Shown piece by piece: positions 1,092 through 33,094 of a DNA stretch of 62,242 nucleotides. Position 1 is the first letter of the stretch, and each line of letters opens with the position of its first letter. This DNA is from Candidatus Zixiibacteriota bacterium (lineage in GTDB: Bacteria > Zixibacteria > MSB-5A5 > GN15 > JAAZOE01). The translations under genes and the position numbers were made by a program. The notes beneath the pieces are model-generated. The model ran no database searches. It was not told the DNA's origin and saw nothing but the letters and a program-made list of their open reading frames with translations. The DNA lies in contig DAOUTW010000024.1 in assembly GCA_030668485.1 (NCBI GenBank), positions 1-62,242 of the forward strand, in the 5' to 3' direction.

Positions 1092-1121
1092 AAACAATAC
1101 TTGCTATGGTAGGATTGCATT

Positions 1122-4778: not shown

Positions 4779-4788
4779 TCACCGCCGC

Positions 4789-6033: not shown

Positions 6034-6097
6034 TGAATATAAAAGGTTTTGAATTACCGCGCTACGGCAGGATTTTTGTAAAATTCAGGGAGAAATT

Positions 6098-6544
6098 ATG
6101 GGTTCGACCAATAACCAGTTCAGGATTGATCTTCCCTCAGGATGGGATGACCAGACCGTCCATATGTTCATGGGGCCGGATGACAGCGGCGTTCAGCATA
6201 TGATGCAGCTTTCGGTTGATACGGAGATTGACGGCGCCGAACTTGAAGAATATGCGCGCGGTCGCATCGATGCCGCCCTGGAGGCGCTACAGGGAGCGGA
6301 AATACTCAAGGAAGAAGAAAAAACTCTTGCCAACGGCAGAGCCGTCTTTGAATGCGTTTTCCGATGGATACCGACCGACGATCAGATTATCTTCCGCAAA
6401 AATATATTTATGATAATCGGTGATACCGCCTACACCTTCTCGGCTAACTTTTCCAAAAAAACACTTAAGACTATCGGCGTACAGGTGGAGCAAATCATCA
6501 ACACTTTCAAATCGGGCGCCGTCGGCGAGGATGAAGAAGACTGA
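6098..6544 (+). CDS. DUF1795/DcrB-like protein, putative T6SS effector chaperone
   Basis: The 148-aa protein begins with the pattern FRIDLPSGWDDQTVHMFMGP and ends with a helix preceded by FSANFSKKT, which resembles the DcrB/DUF1795 fold. In Proteobacteria, DUF1795 proteins of the Eag type are chaperones that shield the membrane-spanning segments of T6SS effectors before loading onto VgrG/PAAR. Here the gene lies two genes upstream of an 899-aa protein with strongly hydrophobic segments, so that protein is the most likely client. There is no signal peptide, consistent with a cytoplasmic role. A GGAG motif precedes the ATG. The family call is by pattern only; the client is inferred. Confidence 0.65.
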   Translation: MGSTNNQFRIDLPSGWDDQTVHMFMGPDDSGVQHMMQLSVDTEIDGAELEEYARGRIDAALEALQGAEILKEEEKTLANGRAVFECVFRWIPTDDQIIFRKNIFMIIGDTAYTFSANFSKKTLKTIGVQVEQIINTFKSGAVGEDEED

Positions 6545-6546
6545 CC

Positions 6547-10493: not shown

Positions 10494-10574
10494 TAAAGGT
10501 TATCATCGCAATACAAAATTTATCGGTTGAACGGCAAGGGTGCCGTTAAGCTGATAGCTAAACAGTAGGTGGAT

Positions 10575-13136: not shown

Positions 13137-13580
13137 ATGGCAAAGTTCATCCTTGGTGCGACCGAAAAGGTGAAACGGGACGATTCTATTCCCGTCGAGC
13201 TTCTTCCGTCGAACAAGTTGCTGTACGCCGCAAAACTGAACAATGATGAGGAGGCGGACGTCTCACCGACCAGATGTAATAATCTCAAAGAGGTCTTTGA
13301 GAAATTCAGGCCCGATTTCTCGGTCGAAATGGAATCGGCCGACGGCGAACAGGTAAACGCCGATTTTGAAATCAAGGCCATGAAGGATTTCGGTAGTAAG
13401 GAGCTGATTGAGAAAGACGATTACCTGCAAAAGGTTTATTACGGCAAGGAAATCCTCAACGATCTCGAAAAGCAACTCAAGAAAAACAACGCGTTGAAAA
13501 AGACTTTGAGCGACAAGGATAAGAAAGACGCCTTGCTCAAGCTGGCGCGATATTACATTGACCTTCTCGGTGAAGAATAG
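13137..13580 (+). CDS. tssB: T6SS sheath small subunit TssB (VipA-like)
   Basis: The 147-aa length and order (directly before the large sheath subunit) match TssB. The sequence has the usual plan: a short N-terminal strand region, a central segment with the pattern FRPDFSVEMES and ADFEIKAMKDFGSKELIEKDD (the domain describing the phi-x-phi range before the long helices), and a C-terminal helical part (LNDLEKQLKKNNALKKTLSDK). TssB and TssC together form the contractile sheath around the Hcp tube. A strong GGAGG site precedes ATG 13137. The gene lies 17 bp before tssC. The call rests on motif pattern plus synteny. Confidence 0.85.
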   Translation: MAKFILGATEKVKRDDSIPVELLPSNKLLYAAKLNNDEEADVSPTRCNNLKEVFEKFRPDFSVEMESADGEQVNADFEIKAMKDFGSKELIEKDDYLQKVYYGKEILNDLEKQLKKNNALKKTLSDKDKKDALLKLARYYIDLLGEE

Positions 13581-15122: not shown

Positions 15123-15533
15123 ATGGCCCACAGACCAAAACTAGAAATCGATGGTGTGCCGTTTTTAAATGTATATCAAGTGTCTTATAACCTATATACG
15201 GCAAAAGACGAAACCGGTCGTCCTTCGGATCGGTCGCACATCGGAACCATCAAGGTCACCATCGAATCCGACAAGGAAGGCAATGTCGATATTGCCCGCT
15301 GGGCGATGGATACCAGTAAGCCGAACTGGAAAGGCGGAAAGGTAATCTTCATTAACCCCGATGATGCAACTATGAAAGAGCTGACCTGGGAAGAAGGGTT
15401 TATTACCAAGTTTGAAGAAACTATTCCGCACGTGAAGGACCGGCCCGACGATCAGATTTACCAGTATTTTGAGATTTCATGTCATAAACTGATGGTTGCC
15501 GATGCCGAAATCGACAACCGTTGGGAAGAATAA
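15123..15533 (+). CDS. tssD: Hcp/TssD tube protein of the Bacteroidota (T6SSiii-like) type
   Basis: The 136-aa protein contains KLEIDGVPFLNVYQVSYNLY, then DETGRPSDRSHIGTIKVTIES and a W-x-M-x-(x)n-WKGGKVIF block. This is the pattern of Bacteroidota TssD rather than of proteobacterial Hcp1. Hcp hexamers stack into the inner tube that is propelled by sheath contraction and may carry small effectors in its lumen. It has a strong AAGGAG site, a 91-bp leader and a stable hairpin immediately downstream, features expected for the most abundant product of the operon. Alignment with T6SSiii Hcp proteins is from memory. Confidence 0.85.
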   Translation: MAHRPKLEIDGVPFLNVYQVSYNLYTAKDETGRPSDRSHIGTIKVTIESDKEGNVDIARWAMDTSKPNWKGGKVIFINPDDATMKELTWEEGFITKFEETIPHVKDRPDDQIYQYFEISCHKLMVADAEIDNRWEE

Positions 15534-15601: not shown

Positions 15602-17380
15602 ATGCCGACAGATGAAAATCTCGACCACCTGGCCGATGATGATAAGGAAGACTACAGTGATAAGGTATCACTCGTAACAGCGGACCTGACGAATGTTACG
15701 CTCACCTTTGACGGGAAAAAGATAGATTATTTCCAGAATGTATCATCGATCAAGCTGGAACAGTCCGTCGATAATCACCATGTCGCCCGGGTTGTTATCC
15801 ATGAAGACATCAAGGATATGAATGAGTATGCGAGGTTCGATGATTCCAAATATACCAACCTCTTAGGCAAGTCTTTTTCGATGAATATTGAGTCGCAGGT
15901 AGCCGGCGTACCTCAGCCGGTTTCCATGTCTTTCAATGGCATCATCGGCAATATCAAGTTCAAAAACAGTATTGACGAGCTTTTCGAGGTTACGATCATC
16001 GCTCACAGTCCGACCATTTTGATGGACGGTGCCAAAAAGAACGCCTTTTACTATGATCAAAGTGCGACCGATATAATCGGAAGCGTCGTCAGCAGCTATC
16101 CGGTAACCAAGGGTAATACGGAGTCGTCACCCGGAATCATGAGATATTGCGTCCAATACCGTGAATCCGATTATGATTTTGTAATGCGACTGGCTTCCGG
16201 AATCGGGATGTTTGCCTATTATGATGGTCAGGAGTTCAGGGTTTCAAAAGCGAATTCTGACGAAACGGTCACTCTCGAATTCCCGTACACATTGGGTTCC
16301 TTTGTGATGGAATTGGGTACAATGGCGCATGAGTACGCCTCGGTCGCTTACAATTATGCTCTGAAGAAAAAATATTCGCAGGATTCGACCTCGGTAAAGC
16401 AGCAGGCGTCTCTGTCCCAGACCAGCCAGATAGCGGTAAAAGCTTCTCAGTCAATGTATAAGAAATCCGGATTCTCAGAACAGCCAAATGTCATCGAAGA
16501 CGCCCAGTCACTCGATAAAGTGTTGTCGGCAAAACGTGCCCAATCGATAGGCCGGATGATTATCGCCCGCGGACAATCCGGAAATCCGACTGTTGTGGCC
16601 GGCCACTGCATTAAAACCGATAATATGGGACGGATCGACGGCACTTACTGGGTGACCAAGGTTACCCATACTTACGACTCCGGAGGATATTACAATCATT
16701 TCGAATGTGTCCCGATCGATATCGCCTGTCCGCCGGCAAGATCAGCGCGGCCCTCAATTACCAACATGCAGACGGCGGTGGTAGTAGGCAACGACGATCC
16801 CCTCCGGTTAGGGCGGATTAAGGTAAAATTCCCCTGGCTCGATTCTGAAGAAACACCCTGGGTACGGTTTATGACAGCCCATGCCGGTCAGGAACGCGGC
16901 TGGTTTGCGCTTCCGGAAATTGGCGACGAGGTGCTGGTTGGCTATGAGCAGGGATCGCCCGATTTGCCGATTGCACTTGGCGCGCTTTACAATAATGAGA
17001 ACAAACCCCCAACCGAGGGCGATGCCGAGAATAATGTCAAAATGTTTTCTACCAAAAGTGGCAACAAGATCGTTTTCACCGACACGGGTGGCGAAGAAAA
17101 AATCGAAATTGTGACCAAGGATGGTAAGAACCTGATAACCATGCAAATCGGCGGACCGACGACGATTGAAAGTGAAGGGGCGATTAATATCAAGGCCGGC
17201 GGCGATATCTTGATGGAGGGAGCCAATATTACGCTGGATAGTCAGGGAGATGTGGAAATTAAGGCTGGCATGAATGCAAAACTGGAAGGCGGAGTTAATA
17301 CCGACGTCAAGGCCGGTGTACAATTGCAATTGCAAGGAACGACAACCACCGTTAAAGGAACCCCCATTCAGCTCAATTGA
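15602..17380 (+). CDS. vgrG: VgrG/TssI spike protein
   Basis: The 592-aa protein begins after an acidic leader with gp27-like beta barrels (SFNGIIGNIKFKNSIDELFEVTIIAHSP, then the ESDYDFVMRLASGIGMFAYYDG segment). It continues with an OB-fold junction (GRIKVKFPWLDSEETPWVRFMTAHAGQERGWFALPEIGDEVLVGYEQG) and ends in a gp5-like beta-helix rich in Gly and Asp (INIKAGGDILMEGA). There is no extra C-terminal effector domain, so cargo probably attaches through the PAAR protein and adaptors. VgrG trimers sit at the tip of the Hcp tube. A GGGAAGAG site precedes ATG 15602. The gene follows the hcp hairpin and overlaps tssE by four bases. Confidence 0.93.
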   Translation: MPTDENLDHLADDDKEDYSDKVSLVTADLTNVTLTFDGKKIDYFQNVSSIKLEQSVDNHHVARVVIHEDIKDMNEYARFDDSKYTNLLGKSFSMNIESQVAGVPQPVSMSFNGIIGNIKFKNSIDELFEVTIIAHSPTILMDGAKKNAFYYDQSATDIIGSVVSSYPVTKGNTESSPGIMRYCVQYRESDYDFVMRLASGIGMFAYYDGQEFRVSKANSDETVTLEFPYTLGSFVMELGTMAHEYASVAYNYALKKKYSQDSTSVKQQASLSQTSQIAVKASQSMYKKSGFSEQPNVIEDAQSLDKVLSAKRAQSIGRMIIARGQSGNPTVVAGHCIKTDNMGRIDGTYWVTKVTHTYDSGGYYNHFECVPIDIACPPARSARPSITNMQTAVVVGNDDPLRLGRIKVKFPWLDSEETPWVRFMTAHAGQERGWFALPEIGDEVLVGYEQGSPDLPIALGALYNNENKPPTEGDAENNVKMFSTKSGNKIVFTDTGGEEKIEIVTKDGKNLITMQIGGPTTIESEGAINIKAGGDILMEGANITLDSQGDVEIKAGMNAKLEGGVNTDVKAGVQLQLQGTTTTVKGTPIQLN

Positions 17381-17766
17381 CGATATCTATGGATTACTTA
17401 GCGTTGCCATATATACTGAGGGAGGGATACCTCGACCGAGCCAATCTCCTCGAATCATTAACCTACTCTATCGGTTTGATTCTGAGCACCCGGAAAGGCG
17501 ATATGCCGTTTGAGCCCGAATTCGGATGTGATATCTGGGATCGGGAATATGGCGATCTGTATACCGCCAACAAGGGTGATATCCGGGCCGGCCTGAGAAT
17601 GGCCATCGATAAATACGAAAAACGGTTGCACAATGTCTCGGTCTCTTTTACCCGTACCGAAGATCGGTCCGCGAAGGTTCTCGGGATGGTAGTCAAGGTT
17701 AGCGGAAATTACCGGGACGACAATGATGAGGAACAGAAATTCCAAGCCAGCTATCACCTGGAGTGA
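17377..17766 (+). CDS. tssE: T6SS baseplate protein TssE (gp25-like)
   Basis: The protein of about 129 aa contains the gp25-like signature: an RANLLESLTYSIGLILSTRKGDMPFEPEFGCDIWDREYGD segment followed by a helix (RAGLRMAIDKYEKRL) and beta strands. In proteobacterial TssE a typical pattern is R-G-x-R-x-(x)n-P-x-FG, matched here by KGDMPFEPEFG. TssE lies in the baseplate and starts sheath polymerisation. The frame opens with TTG 17377 in a TTGA overlap with the vgrG stop; ATG 17389 (MDYLALPY) is an alternative four codons later. It overlaps tssF in turn by GTGA. Confidence 0.85.
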   Translation: MTISMDYLALPYILREGYLDRANLLESLTYSIGLILSTRKGDMPFEPEFGCDIWDREYGDLYTANKGDIRAGLRMAIDKYEKRLHNVSVSFTRTEDRSAKVLGMVVKVSGNYRDDNDEEQKFQASYHLE

Positions 17767-19466
17767 TAATTGTGAGTGACACGACCAGAAACAAACAGAC
17801 AGTCAAAGCCCGCTCGGCGGAAGATATTTTTGCAGCCATGCATCGCGAAATGAGGGCCTGGAATCCCCAGATACCGGAGTCATCGGAAAGGCTCGACCCG
17901 GTTCTCCGCATCCTGATGCAGCTCTATTCCGGACAGTTGGCGAAGATTGACCAGAGGGTCGATATGGTCTGGGAAGTGGCGACCAATTCCCTTATTCGTT
18001 CGCTGTGTCCTGAAAGTATGCGCTGGCCGGTGCCGGCTTTCACCGTGATGCGTTGCGAGCCGAAGGATCCGGTCGTGGAAATTGATCCTCATGCCAAGTT
18101 CTTTTACAAGGAAACTCGCGAGGGGGGACAAACCTTTTTCTTCTCGGCGCTTAAAAACGAAAAGCTGATTGCCGCACAGGTCAAGCATATCTATGTGCGG
18201 AACGGCAATAATTTGATAGATTTGTCGCCGCAGTCAGGCGATGAATTATCTTCGATAACTTCGCGTCCCCGTTCGGCCATGAAGGCGGGAGACAATTACC
18301 AGGTTTACATCGGCGTCGATTATAACGGTGTGTCCGATGATTTTTCCAGCGCCGCCATATTCTTGAAGGGTATCCCCGATGTCTTGAATCAATTGCGATG
18401 GGCCTACTGGTATCCCGGATCGAATTTCGGGGGCGTTTATGAGGACAGCGGTTTCTGCCCCGGATTGTCGGGATCATTCGCAGAGATATTTTCGACCGAT
18501 GGAGAGGGCATGGATTGGGGTGGGTTACGGACCGGGACCGACCTGTTCAATTCGCTGGAGGACAGCTTTGTCGTGCTGCCTGAAAAATTTACCTCAACCT
18601 GGGAATTGGGGCCGCCCGATGAGGAACTGGTGCATCTTATTTCTGAGCAGGGGATCGGTTCGGATTCTGATGAGGAACAACTCTACTGGATACGCCTCGA
18701 TCTCCCGCCCGGCGGTGATAAAACGAAACTGCAATCTCCATTCGAAGTTTATTTCAATTGCTTTATCGCCGTTAACAAAAATGAATTGACCTTGTTTAAG
18801 CATACCGGCGGCAACCGCCTGGTTGAAGTCGAACTCCCCGAGAATATATCCAATGTTTTGGAAGTTACCAATGTGGTCGATTCCAGTGGCCGCGATTATC
18901 AGCCCCGGCACAAGATGAATACCGACAAATCGGTGCGGTATTATACTCCCGAGGAAAGAAACGGTCGCCTGGTACTCTGGTTTGATTTCTCCTCCGTTTT
19001 GGAACTACCGCCCGATTCACTGACGATCAATTATTCCGTCACGTCAGGGGTTGCGGCCAACGGTATCGAAGCCGGAAAAATAAACGACCTGTACGAAAGT
19101 CATCCCGGTATATCATCGTCAGTCAATATTATCCCGACCGGGGGGGCCATTCCGGCCAAAACCGAAAAGCAGATTATCACCGAAGTAACGTCGCGGCTTC
19201 GCAGCCGTGACCGGGCGCTGAGTTTTTCTGAAATTTCGCGATGGGCAATGACCTTTGATCCGCGAATCCACGATGCTGTCAGCGAAAACGGTGTCGAGCG
19301 ATCGGCAACCGGGGTACACCGTTGCATTGTCATCAAAGCCACCGTAAAAGACGCCGACTTTTATTCCAATGATGAGATCAAACTCCTGCAAATGCGACTG
19401 GCCAGTTTTCTCAAATCCCGATCGCCGGTCAATACGCACTATCGCGTGGAGATAGTCAAGCAATGA
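17763..19466 (+). CDS. tssF: T6SS baseplate protein TssF (VasA-like)
   Basis: The 567-aa product has the size and position of TssF between tssE and tssG. The N-terminal region (ERLDPVLRILMQLYSGQLAKIDQRVD, then MRWPVPAFTVMRCEPKD) resembles the helical start and the P-S-x-(x)n-P motif of VasA proteins, though it is divergent. TssF pairs with TssG to form the baseplate wedge that contacts TssK. The start GTG 17763 overlaps the tssE stop (GTGA); GTG 17772 is an alternative. The stop overlaps the tssG start (ATGA, 19463-19466). This run of four-base overlaps suggests tight stoichiometric coupling. The sequence match alone is moderate; synteny decides it. Confidence 0.8.
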   Translation: MIIVSDTTRNKQTVKARSAEDIFAAMHREMRAWNPQIPESSERLDPVLRILMQLYSGQLAKIDQRVDMVWEVATNSLIRSLCPESMRWPVPAFTVMRCEPKDPVVEIDPHAKFFYKETREGGQTFFFSALKNEKLIAAQVKHIYVRNGNNLIDLSPQSGDELSSITSRPRSAMKAGDNYQVYIGVDYNGVSDDFSSAAIFLKGIPDVLNQLRWAYWYPGSNFGGVYEDSGFCPGLSGSFAEIFSTDGEGMDWGGLRTGTDLFNSLEDSFVVLPEKFTSTWELGPPDEELVHLISEQGIGSDSDEEQLYWIRLDLPPGGDKTKLQSPFEVYFNCFIAVNKNELTLFKHTGGNRLVEVELPENISNVLEVTNVVDSSGRDYQPRHKMNTDKSVRYYTPEERNGRLVLWFDFSSVLELPPDSLTINYSVTSGVAANGIEAGKINDLYESHPGISSSVNIIPTGGAIPAKTEKQIITEVTSRLRSRDRALSFSEISRWAMTFDPRIHDAVSENGVERSATGVHRCIVIKATVKDADFYSNDEIKLLQMRLASFLKSRSPVNTHYRVEIVKQ

Positions 19467-20434
19467 TCTACTTCGGCGAAAATAAAATGCCCGATTTCTG
19501 CAACCGGCAGCATCCGTTCCATTATGTCACCGCTCTGAATCTGCTGGCACAAATGGGCATCGATATCGAACGTGTACAGATTCTCGCGATCGGTGAGTAC
19601 GAAAATTACAAGGGAGAGGTCCGGACTCAGAAACCGGCAGCCGAATCTCCTTTGACCAAAGATATGGAAATAGTTCTCGAGGTCGGTTATCCCGGAGCGG
19701 TTGATCAACTGCCGTTCCAGTTTTTCTACGGACTGGAGGGCAATACCGCTCGCGGCAGTGACTGGGATATGAATGCCCGCCACCTTATGGCGCCCTATGA
19801 TGCCACGGTTATCAGGCGCGAAGCGGCAGCCCACTACCAGACCCTGAAATTCGGTTTTGGAATCGCCGATGAGGATCATCTAAGTCGCTTTCTCGGGCTT
19901 TTTGATATGGCGCAGGAAAAGGAGATTGATGACCTCAACCAGGCCGTTATCTGGGCTTCCATCCTGCCCAGCCTTCATCTCTGGAGCGGCAACCCTGAAA
20001 AAGTGGCCGAGGTTTTGCGCCTGTTGTTCGGATACCGTTTTCGAATTGTTGAGAATATCAGATCGACGACCGAAATTCCAAAGGAAATCAGGTACCGGCT
20101 CGGTTCAAAAGCGGGTCGGCTGGGACGTGAAACTGTCATCGGCGAATCTTTTTCCGATTATGACTCAGCCTACCAGGTGATCATCGGCGGAATTTCAAGG
20201 CAGAAAATGGCCGACTTCATTCCCGGCGGAGTCCGGAGGAAAAAACTGGAGTGGGTATTAAGTCTTTGTATGCCCAGTAATTTGGGTTGTAGCATTACGT
20301 TTGAAGTGGAAAATCAGGCGGCTGTGGCCGGTAAAAAGGACGAGGGCTGCTATCTAGGATATTCCACCCATTTGCGCAGCGAGAGGATTAAAAGACAGAA
20401 TCGGCGCCGGGCGACAAATATGGCGGCGCAATAA
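19463..20434 (+). CDS. tssG: T6SS baseplate protein TssG
   Basis: The 323-aa protein begins with the FCNRQHPFHYVTALNLLAQMGIDIERVQ stretch and continues with a LPFQFFYGLEGN segment, recalling the N-terminal domain of TssG. It ends in a very basic tail (SERIKRQNRRRATNM). In T6SS, TssG with TssF forms the wedge complex and binds TssK. The gene is fused by ATGA overlap to tssF and lies 57 bp before tssK. The family match is weak by eye but the position and length (about 330 aa is usual) fit. Confidence 0.75.
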   Translation: MIYFGENKMPDFCNRQHPFHYVTALNLLAQMGIDIERVQILAIGEYENYKGEVRTQKPAAESPLTKDMEIVLEVGYPGAVDQLPFQFFYGLEGNTARGSDWDMNARHLMAPYDATVIRREAAAHYQTLKFGFGIADEDHLSRFLGLFDMAQEKEIDDLNQAVIWASILPSLHLWSGNPEKVAEVLRLLFGYRFRIVENIRSTTEIPKEIRYRLGSKAGRLGRETVIGESFSDYDSAYQVIIGGISRQKMADFIPGGVRRKKLEWVLSLCMPSNLGCSITFEVENQAAVAGKKDEGCYLGYSTHLRSERIKRQNRRRATNMAAQ

Positions 20435-20491: not shown

Positions 20492-21940
20492 ATGAGTGAC
20501 TTTAAATTATATTCGGTCAACTGGCAGGACGGGATGCTCATCACCCAGCAGCATCTCAAAGATCAGGAGCGATATCTCGAGCAGATCTCGCGCTGGCATG
20601 CGATGCATGTCGGGGATAATTACGGCCTGGTCCGAAAAGCCCGTTCCGGACGCTCGGCACTTAGCATGAACCTTTCGGTCAGCGGCAACCGCCTGCGGGT
20701 CGAAATTGTCAGGTGCCAGGCGGTAACCTCCGATGGATATTATATTGAGATCGGAGAATCGTCCCAGGATGTAGTTCGGGGAGAAGCCGAAATAAACGAA
20801 ACCCGGGTACCGGTCTATATCGGAGTCAATCCGGATGCGAAAAAGGCTGTCGGGCAACCCGATCCGGCCGAAGATATCCCCCGCGTACCGTATCTGACCA
20901 ATACTTATTCGGTTCATCTCGGTGCGCCGCCGAATATGCCGGAAGGCCAATATGTTCAGATAGCAGATTTGATAGTCAATGGCAGCGAACCGAGTCCAGC
21001 GCCCGATTATTTTCCACCCTGTATGACTGTTTATGCCGATGAGCGCCTGGCGTCAATCGCCTCGGAATTGAGAAACCGCCTGGAAAGCCTGCTGTCACTG
21101 TCGACGCGGGCATATCGGGAAATTACCGGCTCGACTGCACTCTCGGGCGAAAGCACCTCCCTTCAGGTGGCTTTCAAAGACACCATCAGTATGCTCGTCA
21201 ATCACCTGGCGTCGACGCTCGATGGATTTGTCGTCGGAGCCAATGGCGGTCATCCGCTTTTCCTGACGCTGACTTTCAAAAAGCTCTTCCGGGTTTTTTC
21301 GACTCTGGTCAGTCTTCATCCCGGTTTAAGAGACTATCTCAATGAAAAGTTTTTCACCAAGGAATTGAAATCCGAAATCGGCCGCTTCCAATCGGCGATT
21401 GAAGGATTTATCATGACCGAGTACAATCATCAGGATCTGGGTAGTCAGATAAAGATGATTGACGAAATCCTCGATACCCTAAAAGGGGTCATCGCCTTTT
21501 TGGCTCAAACCAAGGCGGATGATCTCGGCAAGCAGGCGGTGGCGGAGGATACTCTGACCTACTCCGGCCGGACTTTTCGCAATCTGTCGTATAAAACCAG
21601 CCGGCTGGAAAAGGTCGGCGAACTTAGTTATCTGCTTATCGAGATTGCCGAGCCATGTCCGGTTTCAGATTTCGTCTCACTAATGTCGAAAGATTTGTTC
21701 AGCGATGCCGAATGGCGCAATATGCAGGTCAGGCTGGGCCTGAACGAGGCCCGAGGCCTGGGCGAAACCGACCCGGTCGACATCGATACCGTGGAATTGT
21801 CCAACAAGGTCGTGCTTCATCCGCGAGATATGCTGGAGTCGTCATCGGTACGGCAGGTCACACTGATCTTCCGGGGCACCTCGACGCCGGAAAAATTCGC
21901 CAGCCTGGGACAAATGGATTTGATCCTTTATGCCATGTAA
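20492..21940 (+). CDS. tssK: T6SS adaptor TssK
   Basis: The 482-aa protein has the diagnostic TssK start: VNWQDGMLITQQHLKDQERYL, matching the W-x-G-M-x-(x)n-P-Q-H-(F/L)-Q pattern. It carries central helices and a C-terminal domain ending with VRQVTLIFRGTSTPEKFASLGQ-MDLILYAM. In T6SS, TssK links the baseplate to the membrane complex (via TssL/TssM). Its presence distinguishes this locus from extracellular contractile injection systems. It is followed 23 bp later by the putative membrane-complex genes, which supports a docking partner in those genes. Confidence 0.9.
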   Translation: MSDFKLYSVNWQDGMLITQQHLKDQERYLEQISRWHAMHVGDNYGLVRKARSGRSALSMNLSVSGNRLRVEIVRCQAVTSDGYYIEIGESSQDVVRGEAEINETRVPVYIGVNPDAKKAVGQPDPAEDIPRVPYLTNTYSVHLGAPPNMPEGQYVQIADLIVNGSEPSPAPDYFPPCMTVYADERLASIASELRNRLESLLSLSTRAYREITGSTALSGESTSLQVAFKDTISMLVNHLASTLDGFVVGANGGHPLFLTLTFKKLFRVFSTLVSLHPGLRDYLNEKFFTKELKSEIGRFQSAIEGFIMTEYNHQDLGSQIKMIDEILDTLKGVIAFLAQTKADDLGKQAVAEDTLTYSGRTFRNLSYKTSRLEKVGELSYLLIEIAEPCPVSDFVSLMSKDLFSDAEWRNMQVRLGLNEARGLGETDPVDIDTVELSNKVVLHPRDMLESSSVRQVTLIFRGTSTPEKFASLGQMDLILYAM

Positions 21941-21962: not shown

Positions 21963-22886
21963 GTGGATATTAAATCATATATCGAAGACCTTTTCAAGTA
22001 CCTGGATACTTTCGAAAACAGGTATGCCGAGTTTGAAACCGAAGCCTTTCTTCAGACCTATAACGGCATTTATGCAGTGTTTCAAGCTCTGCGGCAGCAG
22101 CGCGATGAGGCGGTCGAAATCGACCGTTACTTTCTCGATAAAATTCAGAAATCGCCGCTGAGTTCATCGGACCTCCGTCAACTTTCCATTCAGATACTTA
22201 TCACCTTTTTTGAATCGGAAGCCGATATCGACGGTCAGTCCAATAAATCGTATCTCTATTGTCGCGACCTTCGCCCCATCAAAAGAGATATTTCCTTTTT
22301 CGAAGATCATCTTTTGCCGCTGCTATTTCGTGAGGGGAGCCTCAGTAACAACTACCGGCTCAATTCTTATTTCCTTGGTGAACTGGCCCGCTATCTGAAT
22401 AAATTCGGTCGCAATATAAATGAAAACATGAGTCCCGAGGTATTCGGGGCATTGTCCGATCCGGCCAAATTTCTGGAATTGATGCGGCGGCGGATGGTGC
22501 TGGGTGAGGATATCTTATCCGATCGTGGCAGTCTTGAGTTTCATCTGCAGCGGATCGATGCCTTCACCAAACTGGGCCGTGCCAACAAGCTGCACGACCA
22601 TTACTTGATTGAATGGAATTACCTGCGCACCACCAGTTTTTGGACAAAGCTGAAAAGCAGTTTTGGGCAACTTTGGGGCAAGTTCAAAGGGGCTTTCAAG
22701 AGCGCCTGTTATTTCAGGCTGGTAATGACGCAGCGTTCGGCAGCCTATCTATTGTATGGTGTGATAATCGTGGTTTTTATGCTTCTGGCGTTTTACGTGC
22801 CATCGAAATGGAATGACTATACCGACCAGAAGCTGGAAGACTTTCAAAAAAAGGCGTTGCAGGTCAAGAGTGGTTCCAATCGCTGA
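21963..22886 (+). CDS. C-tail-anchored membrane protein in the TssL position
   Basis: The 307-aa protein has a long, mainly helical cytoplasmic region and one strong membrane span near the C-terminus (about residues 260-279: AYLLYGVIIVVFMLLAFYV), followed by a short charged tail. That topology (cytoplasmic helical bundle plus C-terminal anchor) is the one of TssL/DotU, and the gene follows tssK. However, I see no clear DotU motif, so sequence homology is unproven. It starts with GTG 21963. I infer that it is a functional TssL equivalent in a reduced membrane complex; an unrelated accessory membrane protein is the alternative. Confidence 0.55.
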   Translation: MDIKSYIEDLFKYLDTFENRYAEFETEAFLQTYNGIYAVFQALRQQRDEAVEIDRYFLDKIQKSPLSSSDLRQLSIQILITFFESEADIDGQSNKSYLYCRDLRPIKRDISFFEDHLLPLLFREGSLSNNYRLNSYFLGELARYLNKFGRNINENMSPEVFGALSDPAKFLELMRRRMVLGEDILSDRGSLEFHLQRIDAFTKLGRANKLHDHYLIEWNYLRTTSFWTKLKSSFGQLWGKFKGAFKSACYFRLVMTQRSAAYLLYGVIIVVFMLLAFYVPSKWNDYTDQKLEDFQKKALQVKSGSNR

Positions 22887-22927
22887 CCGGATGCCTCACA
22901 TATGAGATATAATCGAGATTTGACAGC

Positions 22928-25123
22928 ATGAAATTCAGCAAAGTTTTTAAAGTATTCAAGAAGGGCGCCAAGGCGGCTGGTAAGCGAAAAGGCAAAAAAG
23001 GTGCCGAAGCGGTCCGATGGCCAGGTGGTACTCGAATTGGGATTTTCGGGCACGCCAATTCCGGAAAATCGGTTTATTTCACAGTGCTCAACGAAGAATG
23101 CAAAATCTCCAAGAAATTGCAGATTTCGGTGACCGACACTGCTACTGCAGGGGAATTTCTGGCCAATTATCGCTCCCTTTGGGGACTTGGCTCGGCCAGC
23201 GAAGCTGGAACGGTAGTCGACTTTCGGGGTGAGAAGAAATTTCCCGACCCGACCCGGGGCGACAAAATCCTGAAATTCACTGCCATTATTGATCGCAAAA
23301 AGAAAATGTCGATTGTGGCCTACGATTTCGACGGCAAGGCGGTCTCAATTTCGTCCGAGGACAACGCCCTGGCCGAAAAAGTGGCCGATTTTATGGCGGG
23401 ATGCGACGGTATTCTCTTTTTCTACGACCCGAAAATTCTTGGCGCCGAATTGGAAAGCCAGGCCCGTGTCGCATCATTTGTCAATATGCTGGAAAACCTG
23501 GCTCCACTCCGTGCCCGCCTGCCAATACCGATAGCGGTGGTGATCACTAAATCGGATATTTTACCGGGGTTTGCCGGCGATGATCAGGTGCCGTTGATCA
23601 GTCCCGAAGAAGAATATTTGGCTTCGGAAGAATTCGAAATATTCCTGGAAAGAGTGCTGGGTGGCAGCAAGGTGGCGTCAAATCCCAACTGGTCGGGATC
23701 GGTCAGGAATGTTTTGGTCAGGCTGAAAGATTTTCTGCGAGTAGTTCTGCGTCGCACGCTCGATTTTCAAATGTTTTTCATCTCCTGCACCGGGCAGGAG
23801 CCGGAAAAAGTCGGCACCGAAGTCGGCCGCTCACTCTACGTGCCGCCGGCTAAAATTCAGCCGATCGGCGTCAAAGAACCATTCTACTGGTTATTGAACT
23901 CAATTATCAGGAACAAGCGGATTTCGAAATTCCGGGCCCTGGCCAAATATGTGGTCATCGCCAGTGTCATCTGGATGATCCTCTGTTCCCTTCCTTACCT
24001 TTATCATTTTAAAGTCCTTTTCTCCAAGCCGGTCAAGACTGAGCAGGCGATTAAAAAGCTTCATAACGGTAATCTTCTCAGCGCCACCAAGGCCGAACGC
24101 GACACAATCGGTACAGCCTACCGACGATATCAAAGATCCTGGCTGGTCGACAAGATGTTCACTGAATTCAAGTATCCGGCCCAGCAGATCGGGGCCGTTT
24201 ACAAAGAGAATCAATTGGCAATGGCATTGGCGGAGATTGACAAAACCATCGGGATCCTTTCCTCCGTCATTTCCAATCAGGCCAGTTGGCCGAAAGTCAA
24301 ACCGAGCGATTTGAGTATTATCCCCGACCCCGAGCATGAGAAACTGCTGGCGGTATTCGATAGATACATCGCTACCGATGATTCCACATCGGAGTTGTTC
24401 ATCAAGAGTCAGCGGGCCAAGGATTACTGGGACCTCTTTATCAACGGGGTACAAAAGCCGAAAGATGAGGCTGCCTGGGAGGTAATTCAAAATCAGGTCA
24501 AGCAGGACAGCAACCTCTACTGGAATGATCTGAGCAAGGAAGAGAGAAGTTTTGGTCAGGCGCTTCTGGCTGTCAAGGTGGAAAAGGAAAAAGAGAAAGT
24601 GGTTGCGGCGGCGACAATGCAACTCGGTGACCTGGGGAACACGATCAACAGCAACCCTTCGCCCGATTACCGCCTGAAAAAAGCGGTCGATACGCTCAAA
24701 AAAATCAGGAATAATGTCGGCGGCGAAGATGCCGCCCGGATCAGAAAGTATATCAATAGCGCCAATGAATGGAAGAAATCGCGCCAGTATACATACAGTA
24801 TTGAAAGCATTCCCGCTTCATGGCATTTGCATATCGCCGTTTCTTCGGGCGGGGCCGATCCGGAGTGGAAAAAGGAATTGATAACGATGATTCCGGGGCG
24901 AGAGGAGACCATCACCTGGAAAGCGGGTGATATTATATATATCGCCATGGATTCAACTCATTCAGGAGATGAAACCTGGGGCGTGAGGCCCCGGGCCAAA
25001 AGACCGCTTGACGGAGATTTCTCGATTTTCAAAATGGATGGCGAAATTACTTTTCCTGACATAGGAAAAAGTGTTATAATTCGGTTTAAACCCGAGCTTA
25101 AAGGCCGATTACCCGAATTATAG
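22928..25123 (+). CDS. P-loop GTPase-like membrane protein, minimal TssM-like component
   Basis: The 731-aa protein opens with a basic region, then a P-loop GIFGHANSGKS (Gly41 to Ser48) and a TKSD motif (residues 207-210) like the G4 motif of small GTPases. One membrane span follows (about residues 341-361). The remaining 370 residues would be periplasmic: helices, then a beta domain near the C-terminus. IcmF/TssM proteins have the same order (cytoplasmic NTPase, membrane, periplasmic helices, beta domain) but are about 1100-1200 aa with extra N-terminal spans. This protein is therefore a plausible shortened TssM. The GTPase motifs are clear; the TssM equivalence is inference from topology and position. 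Confidence 0.6.
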   Translation: MKFSKVFKVFKKGAKAAGKRKGKKGAEAVRWPGGTRIGIFGHANSGKSVYFTVLNEECKISKKLQISVTDTATAGEFLANYRSLWGLGSASEAGTVVDFRGEKKFPDPTRGDKILKFTAIIDRKKKMSIVAYDFDGKAVSISSEDNALAEKVADFMAGCDGILFFYDPKILGAELESQARVASFVNMLENLAPLRARLPIPIAVVITKSDILPGFAGDDQVPLISPEEEYLASEEFEIFLERVLGGSKVASNPNWSGSVRNVLVRLKDFLRVVLRRTLDFQMFFISCTGQEPEKVGTEVGRSLYVPPAKIQPIGVKEPFYWLLNSIIRNKRISKFRALAKYVVIASVIWMILCSLPYLYHFKVLFSKPVKTEQAIKKLHNGNLLSATKAERDTIGTAYRRYQRSWLVDKMFTEFKYPAQQIGAVYKENQLAMALAEIDKTIGILSSVISNQASWPKVKPSDLSIIPDPEHEKLLAVFDRYIATDDSTSELFIKSQRAKDYWDLFINGVQKPKDEAAWEVIQNQVKQDSNLYWNDLSKEERSFGQALLAVKVEKEKEKVVAAATMQLGDLGNTINSNPSPDYRLKKAVDTLKKIRNNVGGEDAARIRKYINSANEWKKSRQYTYSIESIPASWHLHIAVSSGGADPEWKKELITMIPGREETITWKAGDIIYIAMDSTHSGDETWGVRPRAKRPLDGDFSIFKMDGEITFPDIGKSVIIRFKPELKGRLPEL

Positions 25124-25165
25124 AGGCGGCCAGGGATAGTTGCCCAGACAAGGAGTTTGATCGAT

Positions 25166-25696
25166 ATGAAGGTAGAAAAATACAGAAACCGTTCGCTGTT
25201 TACAGCGCTGTGCATGATATTTGCGATTGTTGTTATGACTGTGTCGGCGCAGGCGGGAGTCGTCGAGATCGGTAAGGGAAAAGAAGTGAAACTGAAATTC
25301 CCGGCCGGTATCCAGATAACTTCGGGCAATGTCACGTCCGGTATTCCAATAGTTTGCTACCTTGCCGAGCCGCTGATAGAAGGTGGCGTCGTCGTGGTCG
25401 AAGAAGGGGCTCAGGCTACCGCTACGGTGACCGAAGTCGAACCGGCCAAAAAAGGCGGCAAATCGGGGAAAATCATAGTAGAATTCACTTCCCTTGATCC
25501 CAAAGGTGAATATAAGCTGCTTACGGAACCAAATATAAAATTGAGCGGGACGCTGGAACGCGAAGGAAAAGGACGCAAGCTTCTGTCATATCTGTTTATC
25601 TTCGGATTGTTCATCAAGGGTGGAGAAGGTGTCGTTTCCCCCGATATGATCTATACAGTGAAGGTCGCCGAGAGCGTCTATCTGGAAAATAAATAG
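25166..25696 (+). CDS. Periplasmic protein at the end of the T6SS operon (TssJ position)
   Basis: The 176-aa protein from ATG 25166 has an N-terminal signal peptide (hydrophobic stretch, then VSAQAG) and no lipobox Cys, so it is likely soluble periplasmic. An AAGGAG site lies ten bases upstream; TTG 25157 gives an extra three residues and no good spacing. The mature part is beta-rich, with LAEPLIEGGVVVVEEGAQATATVTEVEPAKKGGKSG, a pattern seen in FlgT-C-like/SH3-like periplasmic domains. It is the last gene of the cluster, 42 bp after the NTPase. Canonical TssJ is a lipoprotein; this one may take its place or be an outer-membrane or wall-linked accessory. Confidence 0.6.
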   Translation: MKVEKYRNRSLFTALCMIFAIVVMTVSAQAGVVEIGKGKEVKLKFPAGIQITSGNVTSGIPIVCYLAEPLIEGGVVVVEEGAQATATVTEVEPAKKGGKSGKIIVEFTSLDPKGEYKLLTEPNIKLSGTLEREGKGRKLLSYLFIFGLFIKGGEGVVSPDMIYTVKVAESVYLENK

Positions 25697-27729: not shown

Positions 27730-28860
27730 TTAGAATGCCGCCCCTATACTGGCCGACAACCGATAGCCGGTCAGGTCGATATCGCCATCATCGGCTTTTC
27801 CAGTATAGTATTTAAACCCAACCCCGAATTCATAATCCTTATTCAGGGTTCGTCCATATTCCATTCCGAAACCGATATTATTGGCTGAGCCGAAGTGGCA
27901 TTCACCTTCAAACTCGTCGCCGGCTATCAGGCGCAATTCGAACACAGGAGCTACATACCAAATTTCCTGATAGTGATAGGCAAACTTCCCAGTCATAGAA
28001 AACTCATTGCCGTAAACCTTGAGACGGTAATCGATTACCTCATCTTCAGAATAACTTTCATTGCGTCCACGGATAAGGTAATTCAGATCACCTTCCAGGG
28101 TGTATGAATTTTCTCCATAGATTATTCCGGCATGAATTCCAAGCTGGTCGCCTTGTTTAAAAAACTTTTTATCCCTAAGCTTGTCAGTACTGAAACTTGA
28201 TAGCGTTATATCGCCAAGCAATACCAGTTTATCTGAACGAGTGTCAGCGTTAGCGCTTATACTCAACATATTGCCCGGTTTATAGTCTCCTTCGTCCTCA
28301 TACGCTTCATACGATCCATTGAATTGATACATGATCGTACCACCCAGACGGCTGTTGCCACTCGACATGGCCGTCCCGGCCAGGAAGTTGATTCCCAGAC
28401 CCTCTCCAAGGCGACGGATCGGAAAACTTACATAGTTCTGAGTCAGAACGGCCATGACCAGCTGTTCTTCCTCATGCGATAGCTTCTTCTTTCCAGTGGG
28501 GAGATTTATCCCCATGCTGAGCAGTATGCGGTCGTCGGACATAGAACCGTTAAGCTGCAGGCGAATGTCACTCATACCCGAAAGCGTATATTCCTCATCG
28601 CCGATATCGACCCTATTTGAGGCATTGGCAGCGAAGAAACGCATTTCCAGGTTGTCCTGAAGAGGAAAGAAGCCACCCACCGGAAACATTAATTGTGAAA
28701 TATCGATCGATCCGGCGCTTTGCCCAATACTCCAATTGCTGTAAATCATCCGCAGGCTGCCGGAAGCGGGCTGACCGTAAACAATCTGACCATAAATTGA
28801 CGATGTCGTGAGAATCATCAGACCGGCCAGTATCGCAAGTATCAATCTATGGTCTCGCAT
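27730..28860 (-). CDS. Outer-membrane beta-barrel-like protein
   Basis: The 376-aa protein has a signal peptide (MRDHRLILAILAGLMILTTS then SIYGQ) and a run of alternating hydrophobic and polar strands with aromatic residues, ending in RLSASIGAAF. A terminal Phe preceded by strand residues is the outer-membrane insertion signature. It starts 14 bp inside the preceding CsgG-like gene (28847-28860 overlap) and lies 12 bp before the propeller lipoprotein. It is likely an outer-membrane component of the same system. No specific transport family is recognised. Confidence 0.7.
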   Translation of the reverse strand: MRDHRLILAILAGLMILTTSSIYGQIVYGQPASGSLRMIYSNWSIGQSAGSIDISQLMFPVGGFFPLQDNLEMRFFAANASNRVDIGDEEYTLSGMSDIRLQLNGSMSDDRILLSMGINLPTGKKKLSHEEEQLVMAVLTQNYVSFPIRRLGEGLGINFLAGTAMSSGNSRLGGTIMYQFNGSYEAYEDEGDYKPGNMLSISANADTRSDKLVLLGDITLSSFSTDKLRDKKFFKQGDQLGIHAGIIYGENSYTLEGDLNYLIRGRNESYSEDEVIDYRLKVYGNEFSMTGKFAYHYQEIWYVAPVFELRLIAGDEFEGECHFGSANNIGFGMEYGRTLNKDYEFGVGFKYYTGKADDGDIDLTGYRLSASIGAAF

Positions 28861-30175
28861 CGAGATTCCCCCGTATTAAGACGGTTCCGAAGCCGCCGAT
28901 ATCGTCTATTCCACCGGTTCGGATCGGTGAATCGGGTGTATTCCCGAATTGATCCAGCCCGCCCGGATCGCCGATGAAGCCGTGAGAATTCAAAGCGCTC
29001 GATTGAAAACGTCCCAGGCCCTCGCCCGATTCTTCCTCATCCGAGGCCGAGGTCAGCTCGGTCTCAAACTCCTGGAAGGCGCCGGGCTTTTCGGATGTGG
29101 TCGGGGCGTTGAGCATAGCCTTTTGCTGCACGGCTGCTTCATCGAAGCCTTTATCCTCATTGACCGCCTGCTGAAACTGAAATTGAGCGGCGTCATACTG
29201 ACCCTGGCTGCGCATGTCCAGCCCGCGGCAGAAGGCCATGAAGGCAAGGTATGACTCGGTCGGAACCTTCTGGATAGCTTCCCGCTCGTCGGCCGTCAAT
29301 TCCAATCCGAGGTTATCCACCACTTTGAATACGAATTGTTTCTGAACCTCGAAAAATTTGTTCACGGCGCCTTCGGTCGAACCGGTCATTGTCGTCAAGC
29401 TGTCGCGAGTATTGACTATCGCTCCGTCAAGCTGGATCACATCATCGCCGATACCAAGTATCGATCCGGTGACAATTTGATTGCTGCCCAGCAAACGCCC
29501 CATTCTCGGCGCTGTCGACTTATCGGAATACTGCGACGAACTCAGTTTCAATTCATTCATAATGGCATCGATTTTCAGCCGGTCGACAACCCGCAACGAT
29601 CTGATTTTGGCCAGATCCATCGCCGTGAATTCCGCCAGCCCCTTGCTCAGCGGCGCCAGTTCCGGCGGCAGGTGAGTGTTATCGAAATCGACCACGGCAA
29701 TGGTATTTTCGGGAATGGTATCGATATTGATTGCCGCTTCATTGGTCAGAGCCGTCGATACTTCCTGCTGAATTTTTTTCGATATCAGGCGGTCGAGATG
29801 CGATCGGATCATTTCCCTTGTTTTCGATCCGGGCTTCAGACTGAGCGAGGTGCGATAGGCGTCGATCGCCTTGCCATAAGCATCCTGCTTTTCATAAATC
29901 AGACCCAGGTAAAGATTGGCCCGGGCGCCGGGCATTATGGCATTGGCCTGCATGAAGGCGTCTTCGGCTCTGGTCAGATCGCCCTGCTTGTAGAAGGCAA
30001 TGCCCAATTCCCGCCACGCGGCAAAACTGGCCGGGTTGGCTGAGATATGTTCATAAAACAGTTTGACCGCGGTATCGTATTCACCCCGATCAACCATCTT
30101 CTTACCCTCTGAATACATGCTCTGCGAACAGCCGACCAGCAGAATAAGAAGCGCGATAGGTATATATTTCAACAT
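28847..30175 (-). CDS. TPR lipoprotein with CsgG/FlgO-like domain
   Basis: The 442-aa protein has a lipoprotein signal (LLILLVGC). The first 110 residues are TPR repeats (YDTAVKLFYEHISANPASFAAWRELG, then LTRAEDAFMQANAIMPG). A CsgG/FlgO-like domain follows (IAVVDFDN, LAEFTAMDLAKIRSLRVVDRLKIDAIMNELKLSS, MGRLLGSNQIVTGSI), then a further TPR-like part (QYDAAQFQFQQAVNED). CsgG-like domains form envelope channels or scaffold oligomers at the outer membrane; FlgO-like ones are periplasmic. A GAGG motif precedes ATG 30175. The gene directly follows a second CsgG-like gene, so the pair may hetero-oligomerise. Confidence 0.8.
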   Translation of the reverse strand: MLKYIPIALLILLVGCSQSMYSEGKKMVDRGEYDTAVKLFYEHISANPASFAAWRELGIAFYKQGDLTRAEDAFMQANAIMPGARANLYLGLIYEKQDAYGKAIDAYRTSLSLKPGSKTREMIRSHLDRLISKKIQQEVSTALTNEAAINIDTIPENTIAVVDFDNTHLPPELAPLSKGLAEFTAMDLAKIRSLRVVDRLKIDAIMNELKLSSSQYSDKSTAPRMGRLLGSNQIVTGSILGIGDDVIQLDGAIVNTRDSLTTMTGSTEGAVNKFFEVQKQFVFKVVDNLGLELTADEREAIQKVPTESYLAFMAFCRGLDMRSQGQYDAAQFQFQQAVNEDKGFDEAAVQQKAMLNAPTTSEKPGAFQEFETELTSASDEEESGEGLGRFQSSALNSHGFIGDPGGLDQFGNTPDSPIRTGGIDDIGGFGTVLIRGNLDARP

Positions 30176-30213
30176 AATCGCCTCACATTAATGAGCCCAT
30201 TCGAGTAAGGTTA

Positions 30214-31266
30214 TCATGACGCCAGCGGGCGATAGATATCCATTTTTCGTTTTGCCTCGGCAAAGGTGTTATCCTTTTCATAAGCCTGCTTGAAGAATTC
30301 GTAAGCCTGCTTATAATCGTACTGATCCATGTAATACAATCCTTTGGAATACATGGTGGCGGCATCGTTCGATTCGGTTCCGGTTTCGTCGATGAATTTG
30401 GCCGTTTCCTTATTCAGGGTGATATCCAGCTTTGCAACCAGGTCCTTGACCAGTTCTTTCTGCATCTTGAAATATTCGGGACGTCCTTCCTTGGTTACGG
30501 TAGCGATTATCTCCGAGGTTTCCACCTTGACAACCTTGATCAGCATCCGCGTATCACGGGAATCGAGCTGGGTGATACTTCCGAAGACCATTAACTGCGC
30601 GCCGAGTAATTTACCTACCTGCACTGCCGACGCGGCCGAAACCATGCCCGATTGCGACATCTCTATTTCCTTCAGGATAAAATCGATTTTATCCCGTTCG
30701 ACCACTTTAAGATCGCTGATGGCGGCAAAATCGGTCTCGAAGAAATCGGCCAGGCCCTTGGTGATAAATCCGAGTTCCTCCTGGTATTTGCCGACCGAAT
30801 AATTGTCGAATTCCATGATCGCGATGGTCTTGATATCCTGATTACCATCACTGGGGCATACCAGAGCGCCTCGCTTTTTGGCGATACTATACCAGCGGTC
30901 ACGCAGTTGTTGCGGCCAGAATTCATATGGCAGATGCAGTTCGCACGGACCAATCGACGCCATTTTTTCAAGGTATTCATACGATTGATCCATATGTACC
31001 TTGCCCTTGCTGTAGGTCAGCATGCTCATCACGGCATAAATGGCGATACTGTCGCGGCCCTCCAGGTCGTCGCGGGTCAAAAGCCCCCCGGCCACCTCCA
31101 GACCTTTATCAAATTCAAGTTCGGTGTAGTACTTGAATACCTGGGCCAGTTGTTCGGCTACCTTCGACTGACCCTGCGGCATAACCTGCGCACTGCCCAA
31201 TGACAGCGCCAAAAATAGAATAGCCGCAATGATGGTTTTCCCCTTAATGGGGTTGCGTGGACTCAT
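30214..31266 (-). CDS. CsgG/FlgO-like exported protein
   Basis: The 350-aa protein starts at ATG 31266, which has GAGGAG upstream; a longer frame adds nine residues without a ribosome site. A signal peptide (IIAAILFLALSLGSAQ) is followed by a helical domain and a CsgG/FlgO-like domain (IAIMEFDN, GLADFFETDFAAISDLKVVERDKIDFILKEIEMS, VQVGKLLGAQLMVFGSI). The C-terminus is TPR-like (DYKQAYEFFKQAYEKDNTF). It is closely similar in plan to the next gene, suggesting an old duplication. Located between the kinase and the TPR/CsgG lipoprotein. Confidence 0.8.
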   Translation of the reverse strand: MSPRNPIKGKTIIAAILFLALSLGSAQVMPQGQSKVAEQLAQVFKYYTELEFDKGLEVAGGLLTRDDLEGRDSIAIYAVMSMLTYSKGKVHMDQSYEYLEKMASIGPCELHLPYEFWPQQLRDRWYSIAKKRGALVCPSDGNQDIKTIAIMEFDNYSVGKYQEELGFITKGLADFFETDFAAISDLKVVERDKIDFILKEIEMSQSGMVSAASAVQVGKLLGAQLMVFGSITQLDSRDTRMLIKVVKVETSEIIATVTKEGRPEYFKMQKELVKDLVAKLDITLNKETAKFIDETGTESNDAATMYSKGLYYMDQYDYKQAYEFFKQAYEKDNTFAEAKRKMDIYRPLAS

Positions 31267-31339
31267 TTTTGACTCCTCTGCAAAAAAGGTCATTTATATA
31301 GATTGTCGTTATTTACCATATATTGAACGAAACTAACGT

Positions 31340-33094
31340 TCAATTTTCGAAGTCAAACCACTCTTTTCCCGCGACACCTTTTTTAAACTCGACCGTCTTG
31401 CTCTTAGATAACTCCTGACCGTCCAGAACCAGGATCACCTCAACTTTATACGATCCAACCGGACGCCTGAAGGTAAAATTGGTGCGATCATCCTGTTCAA
31501 CGCCGTCGATTATCACCAGGGCTCCGTCGATCGGGCGGGAGCCGATAATGACATCTCCCGAGTCTGCAACGGCAACCTTATCCGGTTCCAGCTCCGCTTT
31601 CGGAAAACTGAATGCAAATGTTATACTATCCGAGGCGCCATCAGCAAGGTAAACTCTTTTCGGGATACTTTTTTCCTTGCTCTGGCGGTTGGTGACGCGG
31701 ATATCATGCCAGCCGGTATCGAGAATAGCTGTGGCTTCTGACTCACCTTCACCCCATTTTTGTTCATCAATGTATATATCGCCCCGGGGGCGAACGGAGA
31801 TTACCAACGAGGCCTCCGCAGCCGCCACCGACGCTATATTCACCGTAAATGACATCACCGATGAAAAGTCACTTCTATTACCGTCATTGTCTATCGTCTG
31901 AACGTGCCAGTAGTATGTTCCGTTGGTCAGCGGATCGGATGGGGTATGTTCGGTAGACATCAGCGTTCTGGCATCTACTATATTGACAAAACTCGAATCG
32001 GAAGCGTATTCCAAAGTATAACCGACATTACCCTCGTCAGGTCCCTGCCAGGAGAAGGTTGGTATCGGCATATTTATGATCGCGTTTTGCGGTGGCGACA
32101 GCGGCTGGGGTGGGGCGAGAGCGTCTGATCCTCCCGAGAGTATCAAATAAACAATGGCTGCACATACTATCACCACGGAGGCCACAATGATTGGCAGCTT
32201 TTTTGAACCTGGCTTACCGGGCGGAACCTGTGGCTTGGTCTCAGGCGTCGGCGGTGGCGAGTCAATCTTCTTTGCCGCACCGACCTCGCCGCGCAAGGCG
32301 TCGATAGCCGTTTTCATGGCAATGGCCGATTCAAACCGTTCACCCGGATCTCTGGCCAATGCCTTGACAATTAATTCGCCGACTTTTTTGGGGATATCGG
32401 AATTGAGTTCCCGAGGATTCGGAGGATCATTGAACATCTTGGCATCGCGCAAGGCAAACTGATTGTCACCTTTGTACGGCAGTTCGCCGGTCAGCATATA
32501 ATACAGCGTCGTTCCCACGGCGTAAACATCCACCAAAGCATAATTGATTGCTTCGGTTGGATTAAATTGCTCCGGGGGCATATAAGCCGGTGTTCCGCAC
32601 GAGGTTCCTGCGATAGTTAGATTGGGATCGGTTTTACTCTTGGCGATCCCAAAATCGATGATCTTGACCTGGCTTCGTTTATCCACCATGATATTGCCCG
32701 GCTTGATATCCCGGTGGAAAATATCCTTCTGATGCGCAAATTCCAATGTTTCCAGGACGTCACTGATTATTTTCAGAGATTCGGCGACCGGAAGTTGCTC
32801 ATCTTTTTTTATCATGTCCTCGAGGGCGCTACCGTCGATAAACTCCATGGCAATAACAAAATCGTCGCCATGATTGAAAAAATGCTTGATCCGGCAGACA
32901 TTTGATTGACCGTCCAAAAGGGCCAGCTTGTCCGCCTCCTGGCGGAATCGGTCGGCCAGACGGGAGTCGGTGAGAATCTTCAGGACCACCTTCAGGTTGG
33001 GCACATCCTTGTGGACAGCCAGAAAAACCTGAGCCATACCGCCGGCGCCGATTTTCTTCAAGATCTTGTAATTTCCGATAAATTCTTCAGCCAT
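31340..33094 (-). CDS. Transmembrane Ser/Thr protein kinase with extracytoplasmic FN3-like and PEGA-like domains
   Basis: The 584-aa protein has a complete Hanks-type kinase domain: GAGGMAQVFL, Lys39, HRDIKPGN (Asp129), DFG at 147-149 and GTPAYMPPEQ. A Pro-rich linker and one membrane span (about residues 300-319) lead to an outside region with an FN3-like fold (PTFSWQGPDEGNVGYTLEYASDSSF, then GTYYWHVQTIDNDGNRSDF) and PEGA-like beta repeats (RPRGDIYIDEQKWGEGES; RPIDGALVIIDG). The kinase probably senses an envelope signal. It heads an operon with CsgG-like and outer-membrane proteins, just beyond the T6SS. No FHA partner was seen, so a T6SS link is speculative. Confidence 0.88.
   Translation of the reverse strand: MAEEFIGNYKILKKIGAGGMAQVFLAVHKDVPNLKVVLKILTDSRLADRFRQEADKLALLDGQSNVCRIKHFFNHGDDFVIAMEFIDGSALEDMIKKDEQLPVAESLKIISDVLETLEFAHQKDIFHRDIKPGNIMVDKRSQVKIIDFGIAKSKTDPNLTIAGTSCGTPAYMPPEQFNPTEAINYALVDVYAVGTTLYYMLTGELPYKGDNQFALRDAKMFNDPPNPRELNSDIPKKVGELIVKALARDPGERFESAIAMKTAIDALRGEVGAAKKIDSPPPTPETKPQVPPGKPGSKKLPIIVASVVIVCAAIVYLILSGGSDALAPPQPLSPPQNAIINMPIPTFSWQGPDEGNVGYTLEYASDSSFVNIVDARTLMSTEHTPSDPLTNGTYYWHVQTIDNDGNRSDFSSVMSFTVNIASVAAAEASLVISVRPRGDIYIDEQKWGEGESEATAILDTGWHDIRVTNRQSKEKSIPKRVYLADGASDSITFAFSFPKAELEPDKVAVADSGDVIIGSRPIDGALVIIDGVEQDDRTNFTFRRPVGSYKVEVILVLDGQELSKSKTVEFKKGVAGKEWFDFEN

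Follow-up and report, generated by a model that had tools for sequence, protein, structure and literature searches.

How is a type VI secretion system (T6SS) anchored in the cell envelope when no TssL, TssM or TssJ can be detected in its genome? The question is raised by a contig of a Candidatus Zixiibacteriota bacterium (DAOUTW010000024.1, assembly GCA_030668485.1), whose positions 1 to 62,242 were analysed as a whole (62,242 nucleotides, hereafter the window). It encodes a T6SS cluster in which tssK is followed by three genes, to which we refer as L, M and J. T6SS are so far described with two envelope complexes, TssJLM and TssNQOPR; where the latter came from is stated to be unknown (PMC10781749). 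We propose that L, M and J probably make up a third kind of envelope-spanning complex, distinct from both, in a Bacteroidota-like T6SS. The computed support for this consists of gene order, co-occurrence, topology, the motifs of M, the predicted fold of J and the lack of a TssL fold in L. The genes concerned are the following.

20492-21940, plus strand: TssK, baseplate-to-membrane adaptor (TIGR03353, E = 7e-14, residues 9-210 only)
21963-22886, plus strand: L, all-helical protein with a tail anchor, putative inner-membrane subunit that docks to TssK (topology, model, linkage to TssK)
22928-25123, plus strand: M, DO-GTPase2-like GTPase with a single membrane span and a periplasmic region (motifs, Pfam PF19993)
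25166-25696, plus strand: J, periplasmic protein with a predicted fold like the VirB10 C-terminal domain (CTD), a conserved hydrophobic loop and no lipobox (model, signal sequence)

Conservation and co-occurrence of L, M and J

The three open reading frames lie on the plus strand as initially annotated, apart from the start of J, which is more likely ATG 25166 (176 aa; AAGGAG at 25150-25155) than TTG 25157. With identities of roughly 27-69%, relatives keep the order TssK-L-M-J in almost all loci inspected; the three are hence real genes and not chance reading frames. The records of these relatives are mostly labelled Candidatus Zixiibacteriota, and a few Krumholzibacteria. Among 20 relatives the order is broken once, in G029, where M and J lie apart from the core. 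Together with G115 and G116, this genome has a split cluster: L remains beside TssK, and the M-J pair sits elsewhere. The split clusters, which keep L with TssK and M with J, point to TssK-L and M-J as functional pairs.

We then analysed the co-occurrence of M with the sheath protein TssC (PF17541) in a sample of 133 genomes of the phylum, most of them metagenome-assembled. Each was found in 65 genomes. Both are present in 63 genomes and absent from 66, leaving four discordant cases (G035, G040, G096 and G119), all of them less than 90% complete (Fisher p = 7e-33, relatedness not accounted for). TssK of the same type, present in 64 genomes, agrees with this pattern. The L-M-J set is tied to the Bacteroidota-like T6SS of Zixibacteria. 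Homologues without T6SS genes, which the initial annotation regarded as a sign against its proposal, are thus not widespread. It is likely that the complex extends over Zixibacteria and some of the genomes labelled Krumholzibacteria.

Searches for other membrane complexes gave a complementary picture. The searches that detected no TssL, TssM or TssJ in the genome of the window find these families in sister genomes. Canonical TssL occurs in 12 genomes of the phylum and canonical TssM in a largely overlapping 12 (L132-L143); a single genome, G014, combines the canonical type with the L-M-J kind. No Pfam family of the TssNQOPR complex is matched by L, M or J. A search for TssN retrieved none in the 133 genomes, but its control search gave no match anywhere either.

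Are the three proteins diverged TssL, TssM and TssJ?

The position after tssK and the matching topology would also fit another explanation, in which the T6SS has a shortened but homologous TssJLM, its L, M and J being true orthologues of TssL, TssM and TssJ after extreme divergence. For L, the likeness stops at topology. The protein has 307 aa, with one hydrophobic span (261-279) and about 28 residues beyond it, and the rest is all helix in the AlphaFold model (predicted local distance difference test, pLDDT, 87, mostly above 90 over residues 1-220). This is the tail-anchored arrangement that had been annotated, with the helical domain in the cytoplasm and the membrane span at the C-terminal end, as in TssL. 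Profile comparison with the canonical TssL of the phylum (hhalign) gave a probability of about 1%, and no PDB entry matched the model convincingly (best E = 0.59, probability 0.18). With neither a profile nor a fold match, L was ruled out as TssL (DotU, PF09850); its model makes it a candidate for a new helical fold.

M has 731 aa and a TssM-like layout, with a GTPase-like domain, a single span (337-355) and a periplasmic region after it. The motifs that had been read at residues 41-48 (G1, GHANSGKS) and 207-210 (G4, TKSD) are present, along with G3 (DFDG, 133-136) and a G5-like motif (SCTG, 286-289), and residues G41, K47, D133, G136, K208 and D210 are invariant across 50 homologues. Each of the 50 homologues has a match to Pfam DO-GTPase2 (PF19993), with E-values of up to 1 and 6e-8 at best. 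The curated cut-off of this model is passed by two divergent members, and the M of the window lies below it (20.7 vs 27 bits). In favour of orthology, IcmF-related_N also matches 26 of the 50, if weakly (best E = 0.0019; 0.18 for the window). Against it, the canonical TssM of the same phylum match IcmF-related_N at up to 1e-85 and show no DO-GTPase match. As the IcmF domains stay below cut-off and DO-GTPase2 scores better, M was rejected as TssM (IcmF; PF14331, PF06761, PF06744). By sequence comparison, its GTPase domain is nearer to DO-GTPase2 than to IcmF/TssM.

A further point for orthology is the full-length hhalign match between M and canonical TssM (E = 6e-4, score 44; reversed and shuffled controls reach 25 at most). 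This likeness lies mainly in about 19 columns around the G4 motif TKxDxLPGF (PIxxVITKxDxLPGF, E = 1e-5), and M cannot be aligned with TssM outside them: the parts after G4, the periplasmic region (probability 0.5) and the C-terminal beta part gave no convincing hhalign signal. Because the signal exceeds the controls but is confined to so few columns, it may stem from a distant ancestor shared by the GTPase domains, or it may be convergent.

J has a hydrophobic signal sequence and, as initially annotated, no lipobox; among 34 homologues, one has a lipobox-like string, which is too N-terminal to convince. J was rejected as TssJ (PF12790), since it has no TssJ profile match or lipobox and its predicted fold is VirB10-CTD-like, not TssJ. 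With L unmatched, most of M unalignable and J predicted to fold differently, we consider orthology with TssJLM unlikely. The initial annotation, which saw a reduced TssL, TssM and TssJ, is right that the complex is non-canonical and that topology and position fit. Its family assignments fail for all three proteins: the structural comparisons led to an unrelated family for J, an outcome that the initial annotation had named as speaking against its proposal, and to no match between L and TssL. The complex is better described as replaced than reduced.

J and the outer membrane

The AlphaFold model of J (pLDDT 86) was compared with the PDB using Foldseek. The top matches are O-layer domains of the VirB10 family (TrwE, TraF, CagY, ComB10 and a chain of the Dot/Icm type IV secretion system (T4SS), presumably DotG), with probabilities up to 1.00. 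This is not a general background of the search, as the L model gave nothing above probability 0.2 in it. J also has a conserved hydrophobic loop (around residues 138-151) just ahead of its last two strands. In VirB10 the membrane-crossing helices sit at the matching position, before the final strands. The fold match suggests a VirB10-type domain for J, without being decisive.

Several observations weigh against a J that forms an outer-membrane ring, and hence against the complex as we propose it. The best E-value of the fold match is 2.4e-3 and its TM-score about 0.44. The hydrophobic loop is much shorter than the VirB10 antennae. Profile comparison with seven plasmid VirB10 proteins, that of R388 among them, gave no support, and J has no TrbI Pfam match; because nothing was found at the sequence level, the relation is one of predicted fold. 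The wider family of J has members away from T6SS genes, so the fold by itself is no proof of a ring. Lastly, two divergent loci have M and no nearby J, with J-like genes elsewhere in those genomes.

These data raise the possibility that L and M alone are the membrane complex, with J a general periplasmic accessory or regulator and the outer membrane crossed without a dedicated part. The J-like proteins outside T6SS loci are compatible with this, and so is the conservation of J, which is the lowest of the three, and its variable orientation: in several divergent genomes it is encoded 3' of M but on the other strand. However, strong matches to J (E below 1e-29) occur in 61 genomes, every one with M (weaker ones occur elsewhere), and J keeps beside M through two kinds of rearrangement. 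We regard an accessory J as rather unlikely. J is a T6SS-linked branch of a wider family. Two of the J-like proteins distant from T6SS genes are encoded at L184:9109-9648 and L185:7527-8162; the latter is lipoprotein-like, with a glycine-zipper hydrophobic hairpin.

M and the DO-GTPase switches

GAP1 is a recurrent partner of DO-GTPases, and DO-GTPase2-GAP1-N2 pairs are predicted to act as switches of conflict systems (Kaur et al. 2020, PMC7159879). In some GAP1-N2 systems, a beta-sandwich or a cell-wall-binding domain lies beyond a membrane span (PMC7159879). In divergent clades, a GAP1-N2-like gene lies directly 3' of M (in all 5 cases tested, with E-values of 1e-4 to 9e-4 that fall slightly short of the Pfam cut-off). 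It occurs in seven genomes, all with M, and in none of the clade of the window. Within the proposed complex, such a neighbour would fit an M of DO-GTPase2 type. Three examples directly downstream of M are:

L149, 8551-9363: GAP1-N2-like gene
L145, 6462-7292: GAP1-N2-like gene
L150, 8802-9614: GAP1-N2-like gene

Such a partner, and the known pairs, would also be expected if L-M-J were a conflict or regulatory DO-GTPase cassette that rides with the T6SS and controls it, while other proteins provide the anchor. But no other candidate membrane complex was found, either in the cluster or with the TssL, TssM and TssJ searches; the presence of the set is obligatory rather than patchy; and PADLOC gave no defence match for M or J. 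We find a cassette of this kind very unlikely.

Two other readings were considered and rejected. For membership of a defence system, PADLOC gave only weak partial matches to L besides the lack of any to M and J. For a phage origin, none of L, M and J matched PHROGs, and L has neither a fold match among viral proteins nor a relative on viral contigs.

A putative third membrane complex

If L, M and J do form an envelope-spanning complex of their own, we infer the following assembly and function. Its linkage suggests that L would be the inner-membrane docking subunit, binding the baseplate via TssK. Such docking is consistent with the match of the canonical TssK model to residues 9-210 only. A parallel may be drawn with T6SSiii, where the gene for TssN, a protein that binds TssK, lies between tssK and tssG (PMC10781749). 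M would be a membrane-anchored GTPase with a periplasmic arm reaching towards the outer membrane, and its nucleotide cycle might gate assembly or firing. J, given its predicted fold, could form or line an outer-membrane ring in place of the lipoprotein TssJ, its loop being placed like the membrane-crossing helices of VirB10. More tentatively, and with somewhat less than even confidence, the whole may have been assembled independently for the T6SS from a DO-GTPase, a docking protein of new fold and a VirB10-like outer-membrane ring; contractile injection machines and T4SS would then have one type of outer-membrane channel in common.

The comparison with known systems shows both likeness and difference. 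As in TssJLM of T6SSi (Pseudomonadota), there are three genes by tssK, encoding an inner-membrane protein with a cytoplasmic bundle, a single larger NTPase that has a periplasmic part, and a small periplasmic protein, and M and TssM have a TKxDxxxGF segment in common. In contrast, besides the differences of L and J given above, M has 731 aa vs about 1130 in TssM and lacks the N-terminal membrane hairpin. The system resembles T6SSiii (Bacteroidota) in that TssC and Hcp match Bacteroidota-type Pfam models and a membrane subunit gene lies beside TssK, but there are three proteins here vs five in TssNQOPR. The DO-GTPase2/GAP1-N2 systems (PMC7159879) have the GTPase family, a C-terminal span with an extracytoplasmic region and, for the divergent clades, the downstream gene in common with M. 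They differ in that M lies within a T6SS operon, that no zinc ribbons, FNIII or tubulin components were seen and that GAP1-N2 is absent from the clade of the window. J shares its predicted fold and the hydrophobic insertion before the final strands with the CTD of VirB10/TrbI/DotG of the T4SS outer-membrane core, but is a single periplasmic domain without an inner-membrane span. An Acinetobacter T6SS without TssJ is reported to keep TssM and to add TsmK (PMC10564176); anchoring in the outer membrane without TssJ is shared with that system, whereas here all three parts differ.

In the open-licence literature, mostly at the level of titles and abstracts, we found no report of a T6SS membrane complex for Zixibacteria or Krumholzibacteriota or of DO-GTPases in T6SS, and the titles and abstracts surveyed name no VirB10-like T6SS part. 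If the proposal is true, phage-like tails were joined to the envelope repeatedly and from unrelated parts. T6SS would also become connected with the DO-GTPase switches of conflict systems and with outer-membrane rings of T4SS type. L, M and J would then offer a small set of three proteins on which the minimal needs of a T6SS anchor can be tested. Searches with TssJ, TssL and TssM models miss the proposed membrane complex of this T6SS, which many genomes of the phylum carry (65 of the 133 searched).

The T6SS cluster and its surroundings

The sheath proteins TssB and TssC, Hcp, VgrG, the baseplate proteins TssE, TssF, TssG and TssK, and ClpV occur together in the window, which identifies the cluster as a T6SS. 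Upstream of L, M and J, and besides TssK, it comprises:

10569-12023, plus strand: N-terminal half of ClpV, a separate gene (Pfam Clp_N, AAA and AAA_lid_9; split kept in relatives)
12020-13114, plus strand: C-terminal half of ClpV, a separate gene (Pfam AAA_2 and ClpB_D2-small; split kept in relatives)
13137-13580, plus strand: TssB sheath subunit (Pfam T6SS_VipA, E = 1.8e-7)
13598-15031, plus strand: TssC sheath subunit, Bacteroidota-type model (PF17541, E = 8e-71)
15123-15533, plus strand: Hcp (TssD), Bacteroidota-type model (PF17642, E = 3e-20)
15602-17380, plus strand: VgrG spike (PF04717, PF05954)
17377-17766, plus strand: TssE (GPW_gp25, E = 6e-13; TIGR03357)
17763-19466, plus strand: TssF, divergent (PF05947, E = 0.004; gene position)
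19463-20434, plus strand: TssG (PF06996, E = 2e-20)

The two ClpV genes (10569-13114) overlap, and the relatives of the window that keep the split include one divergent clade. In G115 and G116, ClpV is a single longer reading frame.

The upstream region 36-7695 is cargo-like. It encodes a PAAR protein, a PQQ propeller, a DcrB-family protein (a possible effector chaperone), a carboxypeptidase-regulatory-like protein and a protein of 1218 aa with an OmpA domain and a HELGH metalloprotease-like motif. A homologue of the latter sits 3' of J at locus L037. Between this region and clpV, positions 7729-10428 encode a protein of 899 aa that weakly resembles the BTH_I2691 family of T6SS effectors (E = 7e-4). 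Downstream, on the minus strand (28847-33094), lie genes for a CsgG-like TPR protein and a Ser/Thr kinase with an immunoglobulin-like C-terminal part, which are possibly regulators.

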